Below are positions 29,940-37,126 of a DNA stretch of 64,000 bases, one piece after another. The translations under genes and the position numbers were made by a program. The notes below the pieces were generated by a model. It was not told where the DNA came from. It did not search any database and worked only from the letters and a program-made list of their open reading frames with translations. Source of the stretch: Kangiella shandongensis (GTDB taxonomy: Bacteria > Pseudomonadota > Gammaproteobacteria > Enterobacterales > Kangiellaceae); assembly GCF_020005365.1 (NCBI RefSeq), contig NZ_JACNML010000011.1, forward strand, positions 1 through 64,000, in the 5' to 3' direction. How positions within the stretch are numbered: the first letter of the stretch is position 1; every line of letters begins with the position of its first letter.

Positions 29940-30144
29940 TGTCACATTCTTATAAAATGGTCCGAACCTAGCAATATAAAGACTTGAAACGGAAAGGGCA
30001 AAGGCTCACTACAGGAAGTATTACGAAAATTGTAAGAAAGTTTGATCAAGTAGTAATTTGTTCCTAAGCGGCAGATTGCGCGTCTATTGACTAAGTCCCA
30101 TTTACGGTACCTCTGTAACATTTTGCGTATTAATAAGATTAGGC

Positions 30145-30185
30145 TTGAAAATTGTTGTCGAGAATACTATTGTTGCGACAACAAT
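30145..30185 (+). promoter_or_regulatory. promoter with overlapping MarR-type operator
   Basis: A sigma-70-like pair, TTGAAA (30145-30150) and TATTGT (30168-30173), has 17-bp spacing. Over its -10 lies the palindrome ATTGTTG-CGA-CAACAAT (30169-30185). ATTGTTGTCG (30151-30160) also mirrors CGACAACAAT (30176-30185). A MarR repressor is encoded two genes downstream, so autoregulation is likely. This is inference from position. Confidence 0.65.
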
Positions 30186-30204
30186 ATTTACTGGAGAGAG
30201 ACAG

Positions 30205-30429
30205 GTGAGTAATAAATCACAGAAAATAGCTTTTGGGCTCTTGATGGCCTTTTTTATGTCAATGGTGATGTCCTTTGTTATGGTTTTGATTAATTCTGGG
30301 TTATCAAAAACCTTCTTATTGCTCTGGGCAAAAAGTTATATTATTGGCTTTGTTGTCGCGATACCAACAGCAATGATTGCCGCGCTGGTATCGCAAAAAA
30401 TAATTGGCAAATTTGATAGGGAGCATTAG
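30205..30429 (+). CDS. DUF2798 family small membrane protein
   Basis: This 74-residue protein starts at GTG 30205 with GGAGAGAG eight bases before; the longer frame from 30145 would cover the operator and is rejected. Two membrane helices (FGLLMAFFMSMVMSFVMVLI and KSYIIGFVVAIPTAMIAALV) followed by a basic tail match DUF2798, a family of small two-helix membrane proteins with no assigned role. It is the first gene of a three-gene unit with an EVE-domain protein and a MarR regulator, possibly a membrane stress or efflux-related component. Confidence 0.8.
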   Translation: MSNKSQKIAFGLLMAFFMSMVMSFVMVLINSGLSKTFLLLWAKSYIIGFVVAIPTAMIAALVSQKIIGKFDREH

Positions 30430-30430
30430 T

Positions 30431-30865
30431 GTGCCGAGATACTGGATAATTACTGCTTGTAGAGAGCACGTGAAGAACGGCGTTGAAGGGGGATTTGCTC
30501 AGGCATGTCATGGTAAGGCGACACCCTTAAATAAAATGAATCAAGGTGATTACGTGATTTATTATTCAAGTAAAGAGTTCTTTGCAGAAAAACAACTATG
30601 CCAGAAATTTACAGCCGTAGGGCAGATCAAGACCGGTGATGTTTATCAATATGCAATGTCAGAAAGTTTCCATCCGTTTAGGATTGGTGTTGAGTTTTTT
30701 AATTCGAGAGATATTCCCATACGTCCGCTGATTAGTCGTCTTGATTTTATTCCAAATAAAACGAGATGGGGCTATCCATTTAGATGGGGTATACTGGAAA
30801 TCAGTGCGCATGATTTTCAAATAATTTCGGAGTGTATGCTCGATGACAAAAAGCGTTACGTTTGA
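30431..30865 (+). CDS. EVE domain-containing protein
   Basis: This 144-residue protein starts at GTG 30431, one base after the DUF2798 stop, with AGGGAG upstream. It is essentially a single EVE domain of the PUA-like fold: PRYWIITACREHVKNGVEGGF, FAQACHGKATPLNKMNQGDYVIYYS and KFTAVGQIKTGDVYQ are characteristic of the UPF0310 group. EVE domains bind modified bases in DNA or RNA, and some occur in restriction or defence systems. It overlaps the MarR gene by 23 bp, so the two are co-translated. The function in this cassette is unknown. Confidence 0.87.
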   Translation: MPRYWIITACREHVKNGVEGGFAQACHGKATPLNKMNQGDYVIYYSSKEFFAEKQLCQKFTAVGQIKTGDVYQYAMSESFHPFRIGVEFFNSRDIPIRPLISRLDFIPNKTRWGYPFRWGILEISAHDFQIISECMLDDKKRYV

Positions 30866-31286
30866 TTTTAATAAGCCTGAGGAAAATTTGGGGTACTTAC
30901 TGTGGCAAACAACGATGCGCTGGCAAAGACTGATGAACCGAGCTTTGGAAGACATTGGTTTAACTCATACGCAGTTTGTAATTTTGGCTGCTTTAGGGTG
31001 GCTGCTAAAGCAGAATGATTATGTGACCCAAAAAGATATCGCCGAACATAGTAATACCGATAGAATGATGGTCTCAAAAATTCTGAGAAAACTACAAGCA
31101 GATGGGTTAGTGATACGTAGAGAGCATGAAAAAGATACTAGGGCGAAAATCGTTGAGATAACGGATGAAGGAATAGAAATTTTACAAAAGGCTATTGCAA
31201 TAAAGACTCAAGCTAATGAAGGGTTCTTTGAGAAAATTGATAATAAAAGTCGTTTTAGAACTGAACTTGAAAATTTAATTAGTTAG
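30843..31286 (+). CDS. MarR family transcriptional regulator
   Basis: This 147-residue winged-helix repressor has a recognition region YVTQKDIAEHSNTDRMMVSKILRKL (about 60-85) followed by the wing DGLVIRREHEKDTRAKIVEITDEG (about 88-110), typical of MarR. It closes the DUF2798-EVE-MarR unit, overlapping the EVE gene. The ATTGTTG palindrome over the unit's promoter is the obvious candidate operator. Ligands of MarR proteins are often phenolics or oxidants; none can be read here. Confidence 0.92.
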   Translation: MTKSVTFDFNKPEENLGYLLWQTTMRWQRLMNRALEDIGLTHTQFVILAALGWLLKQNDYVTQKDIAEHSNTDRMMVSKILRKLQADGLVIRREHEKDTRAKIVEITDEGIEILQKAIAIKTQANEGFFEKIDNKSRFRTELENLIS

Positions 31287-31424
31287 AAAGAATATAGCTT
31301 TGAATAGCAAGTGTTGAGTCTGACCTATGGGTACTCTACTTTCACTTAAGTTAAAGATGAAGTAAATAGTTATCTAGATCGCTTGAGTAACAGTCTAGAT
31401 TGGTTACAGGAATAAGGCGGGGCT

Positions 31425-33389
31425 ATGGATATGAATACAACTCAGCAAGATTCGCTTGGAAAACACTCTTTTAATGTCGCCCGAAAGGGTTGGAAACGAC
31501 TCTGTGTGTTGATGACGTTTGTGCTTATTGGAGCGGCGATTTCGATACCAATGGCTAACGCTGTTTGCACGACACCTCCTGGCGGTGATACGTCGACGGC
31601 TATCTGGGATGCCCACATGAATGAAATAGCGAGCATGGGTGAAATCGAGCCGGTGGATTTTCAGATCGGGGATCAGGAGATTTATCGAGTGCGTAAGCGT
31701 AGCGATAGACGCACCAGAGATAGTGTGCTGGGACATCTGCGAGCGATTGCGCCGCGCATTGAAGAGTTTCAACGTTATTTCCCGACTGCGGCGGAACGAG
31801 AGGAAGCTCTGGAACGAGTCGAGAGCGGAGATGAAGAAGAATTAAAGTATGTACCGACTCCTCCGGATCGTCCTGTTTTACTGGTGGAAAGCGACCTGGA
31901 TCTTCTGGGCAGTACTCTGGCGTTTACAACCTGCGCCGAAAAAGGGGAGATGCATGACTTAAACAGCTTCGTCGAAGTGGATGAGGATGGCGAAGAGATT
32001 CGACGGTCAGTCCCACTGCCAGAGAGCCTGTGTATCGTTGCCGTACGATCGCATACCATCGACAGTGCCGAGGAGATGCGTTTTGTGTTGGCTCACGAGT
32101 GGGTACATACGATGCAGAACGGTTCTTATGATTTTACTGCGAAGCCATTATGGTGGCAGGAGGGCTCTGCGGAATGGGGCGCGCATAAGGTGATTGAAGG
32201 TTCTGATATTCGTGACCATAAGATTGAGCAATTCTATAACCGCCAGCCGGAATGTTCGCTGACTCAACACAGCTATGACGCCCAGCCGTTCTTTTTCTGG
32301 GGTGAACAGGAGTACGGAACCGACTGGGGAATTTCGTTGGGCATGGGCGGGCCAGAATACCTGAAATACCCACGTCGAGCCGCGGAGATTCTACCGCCAG
32401 CGCAATGGCTGGAATGGGCAATAGCTCAGGGCAACCAAAGCATCACCATGCCCGATGGTCGACCATTACCGCACCAGGCGGAATTTGAGCCGATGGACAT
32501 AGTCGGCTCATGTGAGGGTAATATTGAAGGCCCGCCGCTGTCGGTTCAGTTGCGTGAAGTCACCTTTCCAGAAGGTGCTGCATCACCATTAACCATTAAT
32601 CCTAATGGCGCTCAATTGGCTTATCGCTATGTGATAGATCCCAACGGAAGTGGCGAGCCTAGTAAATGGGCGCCTGTTATAGAAACGACTGAGCTGGAAC
32701 CGCCAAGCGGCCCGATGCAGATTGTTGCTATCATGCCTTCTGGCGATGATCTTAACGCGACGCTTTCGCTGGATAATAGCGGGGGCTTAAACTGCGCCTG
32801 CCATATTGGCACTTGGATGGAGCAGGCCACGGCGGATGACGAAGCGGAGGACACCTTTGATGGAGCGCTTGAGGCTCTAGAAAAGTATAGAAGTATGGTA
32901 CCTCCAGAACAGTTGGCAGAGTTAGATAAGGCCAAACAAATGATCCAGTCGTCGGACACCAAGGATCGATTCCGATTTAGAGGAGCTGCAGAGCAGATTT
33001 TCGAGATGGGAGGCGAAGGAGAAGTCACTTACGATAACGATGGCCCGATAGTCACTTTTAAACCTGGCGGTTCGTTCATCATCGAAGACCCTCATACGCT
33101 AACTGACGGTAAAAGTACCGTTAATTACAATACCTATATCCATTCGGGCGACTGGGTGATTGAAGATGGTGTACTAAAAATCGACCTGCAACATTTTACC
33201 TATAAAGGCACAGTTGAAGGCCCCGTTTCAGACGGACCGCAAAACTTTGGTGGCGATAATAAGCATTCGTCCTACGTCGGCGGTGGTGGCCAATGGGTGG
33301 TGTCTTGCGAAGATAGCGGCGTAACCCTTATCCCAGCTGATGAAAGAGAACGCGGCCCGGGGAAGGATGCGGTTTTAATAGCGCGTTAG
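31425..33389 (+). CDS. secreted putative gluzincin-type metallopeptidase, otherwise unknown
   Basis: This 654-residue protein has a basic N-terminus and a signal-like helix (LCVLMTFVLIGAAISIPMANA). A zinc motif FVLAHEWVHTMQNG (about residues 224-237) is followed 15-20 residues later by WWQEGSAEWGAHKV, the HExxH plus EGxAE layout of gluzincin (peptidase MA-like) metallopeptidases. The middle and C-terminal parts (about 350-654) are not recognised. Six or more cysteines suggest disulfides in the periplasm or outside the cell. It is a single gene between AT-rich flanks. Peptidase activity is inferred from the motif alone. Confidence 0.65.
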   Translation: MDMNTTQQDSLGKHSFNVARKGWKRLCVLMTFVLIGAAISIPMANAVCTTPPGGDTSTAIWDAHMNEIASMGEIEPVDFQIGDQEIYRVRKRSDRRTRDSVLGHLRAIAPRIEEFQRYFPTAAEREEALERVESGDEEELKYVPTPPDRPVLLVESDLDLLGSTLAFTTCAEKGEMHDLNSFVEVDEDGEEIRRSVPLPESLCIVAVRSHTIDSAEEMRFVLAHEWVHTMQNGSYDFTAKPLWWQEGSAEWGAHKVIEGSDIRDHKIEQFYNRQPECSLTQHSYDAQPFFFWGEQEYGTDWGISLGMGGPEYLKYPRRAAEILPPAQWLEWAIAQGNQSITMPDGRPLPHQAEFEPMDIVGSCEGNIEGPPLSVQLREVTFPEGAASPLTINPNGAQLAYRYVIDPNGSGEPSKWAPVIETTELEPPSGPMQIVAIMPSGDDLNATLSLDNSGGLNCACHIGTWMEQATADDEAEDTFDGALEALEKYRSMVPPEQLAELDKAKQMIQSSDTKDRFRFRGAAEQIFEMGGEGEVTYDNDGPIVTFKPGGSFIIEDPHTLTDGKSTVNYNTYIHSGDWVIEDGVLKIDLQHFTYKGTVEGPVSDGPQNFGGDNKHSSYVGGGGQWVVSCEDSGVTLIPADERERGPGKDAVLIAR

Positions 33390-34909: not shown

Positions 34910-35128
34910 ACCTTGAATGAACTATGTTCCTTTTAGGCACGCGCTTTCTTTGGTGCATTAATTAGAACTCAATAAATATGTGTTGCATATAGTTAAATAA
35001 ACCATAAAATAAATATCAGGCTTCTGGCGGCCCCTCTTTTACTCGTTGTTTTTGTCACTAAATGTCTAGTGTGCAGGACTCTGACGAGAAACAGGCTTTA
35101 ACCTGTTATAATTTTGGAGGACGTAGCT

Positions 35129-35236
35129 ATGGGTTGCAAAACTACTAAACGCACTGTGCGTACTAGTAAAAAGCCCGGCCCAAAAACTGTTCGTGTGAAA
35201 CCACACAAACGGTCAAAGCCGAGCAAATGCAAGTAA
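35129..35236 (+). CDS. small basic cysteine-containing protein, unknown
   Basis: A 35-codon frame starts MGCKTTKRTVRTSKKPGP and ends KRSKPSKCK. The ATG at 35129 has a strong GGAGG eight bases before it. Fourteen of 35 residues are Lys or Arg, with one Cys near each end, two prolines in KPGPK, and no acidic residue. The clean ribosome site in an otherwise gene-free 400-bp gap argues for real translation. Nucleic-acid binding or a membrane-active role are both conceivable. I do not recognise a family. Confidence 0.6.
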   Translation: MGCKTTKRTVRTSKKPGPKTVRVKPHKRSKPSKCK

Positions 35237-35306
35237 TCTAGTGTAAATAGGCACCAGAAGCCGCTTTGTACCAATAAAAATTTGTAACTAGCATAAAATA
35301 GTTTAC

Positions 35307-35906
35307 TTAGTCACTTCTGATTTTTCCTTGTTTTGTTAAGGCTGTTAATAGGGCACGAAAAGCTCTTATGCACCTAAGATGGTTTTCTGGATGATACTCA
35401 TTTTCATACTCGCGCCTCTCAAGTTGGAAAAGGTGCATTCTATTTCTGGTGTCCCAAAGCCAATCAAGTTCAACTTTAAGATCATCATTTATAATAGAAT
35501 TCTCAAGCAGGTATGTCGTTCGTCTTTTATAATTCTGGCCGCAGATGGTTTTTAGATATTCTTTGGTCGTGCTTTCTGTAACGCTTGCAACTAGGAAAAT
35601 GAATAGCTTATGCAGCATGTCTCTGGCTGTTCCAGACAAATCCGTTCGAACAATAAGCCAGATTATAGTGTCTGATAGAATTAATGTATAAGCTAGATTT
35701 GATTTTAACTCGGGGCAGTCAATAAAAGGGAATCTATTACGTTGATATTGCGCTGTGCGAATAAAACCTCTTGGAAATCTTATTTGTGCTTCTGGAAGGT
35801 CAGCTATAGTCTTCCCCTTTGCCACGCAATAGTCATTAATTTCCTGGATTAATTGCCCTGCCATCGAAACTGCTTTTTGCAAATCATTTTCGTCTTTAAT
35901 ATTCAT
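35307..35906 (-). CDS. hypothetical protein, possibly HEPN-like helical fold
   Basis: This 199-residue, mostly helical cytoplasmic protein is visibly AT-rich compared with the neighbouring housekeeping genes. The C-terminal segment LDWLWDTRNRMHLFQLE resembles the RN...H helix of HEPN-type proteins, but the spacing (RNRMH) does not fit the active Rx4-6H RNase motif. No signal peptide or membrane segment is clear, although ILSDTIIWLIV is hydrophobic. It and the next gene share strand and composition and look acquired. No function can be assigned. Confidence 0.6.
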   Translation of the reverse strand: MNIKDENDLQKAVSMAGQLIQEINDYCVAKGKTIADLPEAQIRFPRGFIRTAQYQRNRFPFIDCPELKSNLAYTLILSDTIIWLIVRTDLSGTARDMLHKLFIFLVASVTESTTKEYLKTICGQNYKRRTTYLLENSIINDDLKVELDWLWDTRNRMHLFQLERREYENEYHPENHLRCIRAFRALLTALTKQGKIRSD

Positions 35907-36007
35907 TGTTCTAACCCATAATTTTAATGAAGTCTCTAAAAGGTTTAAGAGTTTCTTATATATGAAACTCTGTAGTTGCTTAACCCCTTATTTATTTAGT
36001 TTGTGAA

Positions 36008-37042
36008 TTAGGGTTTATCTACAACATTTAGTTTTAGCAGCCTCTCAACTTTTTCCGATAACTCATTTAGTAGTGATGTGCTAGGGTTGGAATTCTTATT
36101 ACTATCTTCATTAGTTTTAGGTAGTTGAAATGCAACTCGCGTAGCAGAAGAAGTAATTTCATCTTTAACTTGATTGTCGGTAACTAATTCTGAGTAAGAA
36201 GGAAGGGTCTGAGCAATTGCTGATTTATGTGCATAATTTTCTTCTAACATTCTTTCCTTTACATATTGTCTAAATGAGAAAAAAACCAACAGATATGAAG
36301 GAGCCAATAAAAGAATTCTCATGAACCAAACTAAAGGAAAATCATACTGAGTGGAAGGGGAGCTGTTTTCATCTTTAGCGGGCACTTCGCTTTCTATATG
36401 ATTTACTAAATTAGTAATTGAATTAGTTACATCATAAGTTACATACATAGCTATGCCTACACTAATAGCCACAATTATAGCCCAAATCCATTTTTGAGTT
36501 GATATTTTGCTTCGTCGATTATCGAAGGCAGAGCTTAATGAGTCAGCTGCTGCTGGATTAATTAAAGATTTGATTTGATCTTTAAGTTTTACTATATCAG
36601 CATTTGCTTGGCTGACTTTTGATAACTGATCGTCAATTGATGTTCTTTTAGCTTCAATATCAGGCCCTAATATAGCCAATGCGTACACACCTGATTGGCG
36701 GATATGAGTATTGGTGGACTGAAGTTGCGCCAAAGGTTGGTGATGTTGATTTTGTATTTGATCAGGAGCCGTGCCTTTTAAATTGCTATACTGTGTGAAG
36801 AAATTGTTTAAATTTGTGCTAATACCATTCAAAAGATTAAATGGAATGTTTTCTAAAAGCTCCTCCTTTAGTGCGGTTCTCAATACATTTAAGGTGTCAT
36901 GTATTAAGGTCTCTATTTCATCTACTTTTTGGTTTTGCCAAGCCTGAGCCCTGCCTCCAGATACTAAAAGAACATCGAAATCTTCACTTTCTAAATTTTC
37001 AACATTTTTAAGTATAGATTCTACCAAGTCTTTATTGGGCAT
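36008..37042 (-). CDS. hypothetical membrane protein with coiled coil
   Basis: This 344-residue, AT-rich gene encodes a protein with a helical N-terminal half (about 1-175, including coiled-coil-like SKVSQANADIVKLKDQIKSL). Two membrane segments (WIWAIIVAISVGIAMYVTY at about 190 and FMRILLLAPSYLLVFFSF at about 250) are separated by a Ser/Glu-rich loop. A cytoplasmic-looking tail ends in another helix (LNELSEKVERLLKL). The topology resembles membrane-anchored effectors or scaffolds, but no family is recognised. It lies about 100 bp upstream of the 199-residue gene on the same strand, so the two may form a unit. Confidence 0.6.
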   Translation of the reverse strand: MPNKDLVESILKNVENLESEDFDVLLVSGGRAQAWQNQKVDEIETLIHDTLNVLRTALKEELLENIPFNLLNGISTNLNNFFTQYSNLKGTAPDQIQNQHHQPLAQLQSTNTHIRQSGVYALAILGPDIEAKRTSIDDQLSKVSQANADIVKLKDQIKSLINPAAADSLSSAFDNRRSKISTQKWIWAIIVAISVGIAMYVTYDVTNSITNLVNHIESEVPAKDENSSPSTQYDFPLVWFMRILLLAPSYLLVFFSFRQYVKERMLEENYAHKSAIAQTLPSYSELVTDNQVKDEITSSATRVAFQLPKTNEDSNKNSNPSTSLLNELSEKVERLLKLNVVDKP

Positions 37043-37126
37043 TTTATCTCCTTCAGCTTAAGCTTAATTTAATAGACAGAGAATGTTCACAATATATAAA
37101 GTTAATTAATTGTTATAAATTGTATT

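Follow-up and report, generated by a model that had tools for sequence, protein, structure and literature searches.

What kind of unit is formed by the AT-rich group of MarR, EVE and DUF2798 genes in the window (the whole 64-kb stretch of DNA analysed here), and has such a unit been described before? The cassette is real and well formed. It is of a published kind, and the DUF2798 gene is what is new.

The three genes lie on the + strand as a compact unit in the order DUF2798, EVE, MarR, with the regulator in final position (Table 1); the order MarR-EVE-DUF2798 given in the initial annotation was corrected accordingly. All three domain assignments were borne out by Pfam searches, the EVE and MarR matches exceeding the Pfam cut-offs, and a plausible ribosome-binding site precedes each gene. 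Three overlapping genes had been described. EVE and MarR do overlap, by 23 nt, and this is the sole overlap in the unit; the DUF2798 stop at 30429 and the EVE GTG start at 30431 are separated by 1 base. The most likely start codon of DUF2798 is GTG 30205, preceded by GGAGAGA. A start at TTG 30145 was rejected, as that ORF would take in the promoter and operator. Likewise, an EVE start at the upstream TTG 30404, which would overlap DUF2798, was set aside because homologues align from 30431. GC content is 37.5% in the cassette vs 46.9% in the window, in agreement with the claim of an AT-rich stretch.

Table 1. Coordinates of the cassette and its features in the window.
Feature	Position	Strand	Remarks
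Acquired cassette, approximate extent in variable slot	30046..31420		from amidohydrolase gene to the gene at 31425; congener homology ends at 30039-30045
Putative promoter	30145..30173	+	-35 TTGAAA 30145-30150, 17-nt spacer, -10 TATTGT 30168-30173; consensus match 9/12
Second half-operator (predicted)	30151..30160	+	ATTGTTGTCG; same as reverse complement of 30176-30185
Predicted MarR autoregulatory operator	30168..30186		19-bp palindrome TATTGTTGCGACAACAATA over the -10; perfect 8-bp arms
DUF2798 small membrane protein	30205..30429	+	74 aa, GTG start; PF11391 E=6.6e-15; membrane assignment by hydropathy
EVE-domain protein	30431..30865	+	144 aa, GTG start; PRK02268/UPF0310 class; PF01878 E=4.3e-15
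MarR-family regulator	30843..31286	+	147 aa, no cysteine; PF01047 E=2.6e-12

Upstream of the first gene, a sigma-70 promoter with a palindromic operator over its -10 and an additional half-site in its spacer had been proposed. The ATTGTTG-CGA-CAACAAT core was located at 30169-30185 with symmetry extending to 19 bp, and across the whole 2.8-Mb genome the 17-bp core has a single match at 0-1 mismatch. The half-site begins 18 bp upstream of the palindrome, and its 7-base core (30151-30157), present as claimed, extends to a 10-mer; no further copy of this 10-mer or of that at 30176-30185 was found within the window. The second site consists of the half-site and 2/7 further bases only. The position of the promoter is plausible, and the palindrome covers its -10. 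The match to the consensus is no better than chance alone (6 matches as good as TTGAAA-17-TATTGT were observed in the region vs 4.7 expected), and the promoter therefore stands as a weak prediction. For the palindrome, 24 sequences with 8-bp arms were counted in the window, and a shuffle test of the 200-bp upstream region gave p=0.09. On sequence by itself, the operator is only marginally beyond chance; the case for it is made by its position, the tandem half-site, genome-wide uniqueness and the comparison with relatives.

For this comparison, which the initial annotation had named as a check in the form of a neighbour survey, 530 EVE relatives were found in genome contigs, of which the best 80 were read; with other searches this yielded 90 loci. 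A MarR gene lies on the same strand within 450 bp of EVE in 47 of the 90. The third gene is mostly rhodanese, VOC or SRPBCC (13, about 9 and 9, respectively, among 48 adjacent proteins). The refuting condition set in the initial annotation, a trio conserved nowhere else, gave a split outcome: EVE-MarR pairs are conserved widely, and no second trio with DUF2798 was encountered in about 115 loci. DUF4345 was considered as a further third gene and dropped: the match is probably a gene of locus L089 far from the cassette, and a candidate in L021 had no Pfam match. E. coli genomes gave no DNA match, and viral contigs contained one relative only (L093). A separate accession deposited as phage, MW462191.1 (L129), contains an EVE match together with many bacterial metabolic genes; the genes around EVE are for LysR, efflux, superoxide dismutase and aminotransferase proteins. 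The record resembles bacterial more than phage DNA, and as evidence for phage carriage it is weak.

Clade-specific palindromes of 18-19 bp precede the first gene of related EVE-MarR operons. In Bacilli, TAATCAGTTAWACTGATTA was found upstream of the first gene in 15/15 operons (17-19 of 19 bases), which include some near-relative genomes; in the MarR-rhodanese-EVE operons of this group (L034-L092) it is strictly kept and sits 39-58 bases before MarR. A different palindrome, TANTACGTATACGTANTA, lies upstream of 9 operons of Chlamydiae/Dependentiae, and weaker related ones occur in Bacteroidetes and in a viral contig. Environmental Chlamydiae repeatedly have VOC-EVE-MarR cassettes with TANTACGTATACGTANTA, which also accompanies EVE-MarR in Dependentiae (L016-L059). 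The window palindrome agrees with these in size and place and has bases of its own; its sequence was absent upstream of the related operons, and apparent matches in Bacilli were discarded, as they fell within the MarR coding sequence. Like-sized palindromes upstream in Bacilli and in Chlamydiae/Dependentiae support reading the window palindrome as an operator, and this comparative evidence is stronger than the palindrome statistics. The proposal of a visible operator over the -10 was upheld in this sense, with a 19-bp palindrome that is unique in its genome and has clade-specific counterparts in relatives.

Operons of this general composition are known. Bell, Wolf and Koonin (2020; PMC7641849) described operons that combine EVE with MarR or YafY and include SRPBCC or VOC partners; their MarR/YafY-EVE group is the largest almost exclusively prokaryotic EVE cluster. 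A small-molecule-binding third gene (SRPBCC or VOC/EhpR) is the most frequent there and is not universal; DUF2798 is not mentioned in that paper. As in these cassettes, found across phyla, the window has EVE in an operon with MarR and a third gene. It differs from them in carrying DUF2798 instead of a gene for a soluble ligand-binding SRPBCC or VOC/EhpR protein. YafY-VOC-EVE plasmid operons of Legionella and Klebsiella likewise bring EVE of the same class together with a transcription factor plus a further gene, but have a WYL-type regulator and VOC where the window has MarR and DUF2798. The Bacilli MarR-rhodanese-EVE operons also combine EVE and MarR with a third gene and have a 19-bp palindrome in front; they differ in having MarR first, from a distant MarR branch, and a rhodanese partner.

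The closest published counterpart is ydcFGH of B. subtilis, whose products are a protein of 97 aa, an EVE protein and PamR (YdcH), a MarR regulator. A 2017 study examined this operon using gel shift, reporters, RNA-seq and stress tests (PMC5730154). At its own promoter, PamR binds an 18-bp inverted repeat, TAATAAGnnnnCTTATTA, as well as a second, imperfect one, and represses ydcFGH; the repeats are absent elsewhere in the B. subtilis genome. When challenged with antibiotics, salt, ethanol, peroxide or salicylate, strains deleted for ydcF, ydcG or ydcH showed no phenotype. Promoter activity hardly changed when ydcF or ydcG was lost, and loss of PamR altered prophage and metabolic gene expression (PMC5730154). 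The matching locus in our data was recognized in genome G801 (L151) by both published repeats, an rsbX-like upstream gene, the 97-aa ORF, EVE and MarR. The window EVE is 40% identical to the EVE of this locus (E=4e-40), and the window MarR is 35% identical to its YdcH/PamR-like protein (E=6e-32). Both units have a small first gene followed by EVE and a PamR homologue in tight coupling, and at the promoter both have a genome-unique inverted repeat, about 18 bp long, together with a weaker copy of it (in the window, 30168-30186 and the half-site at 30151-30160). They differ in operator bases, the PamR sites being tested and the window sites predicted, and in the first gene, which in ydcFGH is a broken SRPBCC gene and in the window an intact DUF2798 gene. 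With MarR-EVE three-gene operons already in PMC7641849 and ydcFGH/PamR in PMC5730154, a compact unit of a new kind is not supported. The broken state of ydcF was apparent at positions 1067-1489 of L151, where the frame is lost in the first half and an internal stop is present; near relatives (L152, L153) have intact SRPBCC copies.

In MarR trees, the window protein fell on the PamR side, apart from the Bacilli MarR-rhodanese-EVE branch; its own branch is long, and its exact place is unsure. No second copy of the cassette MarR was found in the genome. The protein lacks cysteine, which excludes direct thiol sensing by MarR. The suggestion that EVE is under a MarR switch is supported.

The EVE protein scored 178 bits to NF002616 (cut-off 139) and was placed in a single alignment and tree together with EVE proteins linked to MarR or YafY. 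It has the predicted PUA-like EVE fold and the class-specific conserved residues; within the shared region, only three sites deviate from columns with at least 90% conservation. Its AlphaFold model has a pLDDT of 93.5, and the best structural matches of the model were PH1033 (2hd9/1wmm) and YTH domains. Given the well-predicted fold and its likeness to PH1033 and YTH m6A readers, binding of a modified base is plausible.

For the DUF2798 protein, two transmembrane helices were predicted from hydropathy at about residues 9-29 and 43-65. Among 90 related loci, 394 genomes of the order, 398 of the phylum and plasmids, and in about 115 EVE loci examined altogether, no DUF2798 gene was found beside EVE; one match in L034 (15 bits) was set aside as a 53-aa ORF about 500 bp from the cassette. 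With 0 of about 115 loci, DUF2798-EVE-MarR counts as a new variant. DUF2798 genes of related genomes often adjoin divergent MarR or LysR genes, and NmrA-like, SDR, CMD, ABM or siderophore-interacting genes occur near them. These neighbourhoods, by inference, point to redox or electrophile stress at the membrane. Loci with DUF2798 beside a divergent MarR gene are L115, L118, L119 and L121; in these and L112, several DUF2798 proteins have two domain copies, and some of the genes precede DUF3861, NmrA-like or siderophore-interacting genes. A different DUF2798 gene was seen in five congeners (L095-L098, L101), located by eye between an apparent aat gene and a WYL-type regulator; the copy in L101 has an internal stop codon.

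The initial annotation had taken the AT-richness as a hint of transfer, and comparison with congeners substantiated this. Nearly all congeners retain the amidohydrolase and DEAD-box helicase genes on either side, and homology resumes within the gene at 31425 or at the helicase. The EVE protein is absent from the 19 other genomes of the genus, and among 394 genomes of the order only two others have the gene. In the congener loci compared (L133-L137), one congener (G007) has an empty site, with 194 bp between the amidohydrolase and helicase genes; another (G001) contains only a counterpart of the gene at 31425, and G005, G009 and G010 have different small genes for ankyrin-like and hypothetical membrane proteins. 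The empty site, the other genes in congeners and the end of homology at 30039-30045 identify the cassette as one of the cargoes that a variable slot can take up; no integrase was noted within it. A second AT-rich stretch of the window (35000-37100, 35-39% GC) has two - strand ORFs, 35307-35906, with no Pfam match, and 36008-37042, and is possibly another acquired segment.

The genes present and their close coupling, a tandem palindromic site over the promoter that is unique in the genome, the homology of the MarR and EVE proteins to an experimentally studied pair, and the variable slot are together best explained by a horizontally acquired, self-repressing stress cassette of the MarR-EVE (ydcFGH/PamR) type in which DUF2798 has taken the usual partner's place, and we consider this reading likely. 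A MarR dimer would bind 30168-30186 and, more weakly, 30151-30160, block the -10 and hold down expression of the three genes. MarR would be released by a signal, most likely a small compound of hydrophobic or electrophilic nature, and the EVE protein would then bind a modified base in RNA or DNA. DUF2798, in place of an SRPBCC, VOC or rhodanese partner, would probably handle or sense the compound at the membrane; its role is the least certain step of this mechanism. The cassette would regulate itself alone. Counted against this explanation were the unshared palindrome sequence, the weak promoter match, the lack of a deletion phenotype in B. subtilis, the near-constant promoter activity there after loss of ydcF or ydcG, and the unmatched trio.

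The last point bears on DUF2798 in particular. With no other such trio found, chance at this one locus could account for the membrane partner: a MarR-EVE pair may have landed beside unrelated cargo and come to share its promoter by chance, with only EVE and MarR cooperating. DUF2798 genes are otherwise apart from EVE and often found with MarR or LysR regulators, and the 1-nt gap could stem from a deletion. This alternative is possible, if unlikely. The predicted operator lies directly before DUF2798, so that MarR should control it; the gene occupies the first cassette position, which in relatives with this gene order is the place of the partner, and the slot is filled by the three genes. A site for another regulator, or a palindrome without function, would be compatible with the frequency of 8-bp arms in the 64 kb and the modest shuffle result. 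It is nonetheless improbable in view of the uniqueness of the palindrome in the genome, the adjoining tandem 10-bp half-site and a placement as in related cassettes.

Defence against phage or foreign DNA, in which EVE reads modified invader bases and MarR silences the genes until infection, would fit the alternative cargo of the slot in congeners, the EVE domains in modification-dependent restriction systems (PMC7641849), a fold resembling VcaM4I and the altered prophage gene expression in B. subtilis after PamR loss (PMC5730154). The cassette has no nuclease or other effector, however, and related cassettes carry VOC, SRPBCC or rhodanese genes in place of effectors. PADLOC models gave no EVE or DUF2798 match, and their MarR matches were only to winged-helix parts of CARF and other proteins. 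A defence role is thus judged improbable.

Three points are of use for the MarR-EVE family, whose members occur across many phyla. The broken SRPBCC partner in the B. subtilis-type operon is a possible reason for the missing phenotype in PMC5730154. Candidate operator motifs are now at hand for two large clades, making those MarR regulators directly testable. The partner list of SRPBCC, VOC, rhodanese and now DUF2798 restricts the probable signal to compounds that are hydrophobic or electrophilic. More tentatively, and with considerable doubt, MarR-EVE cassettes may swap sensor or detoxifying modules, the membrane protein here answering a membrane-borne compound and not a soluble ligand. If so, DUF2798 would be the first membrane partner known for a MarR-EVE system.
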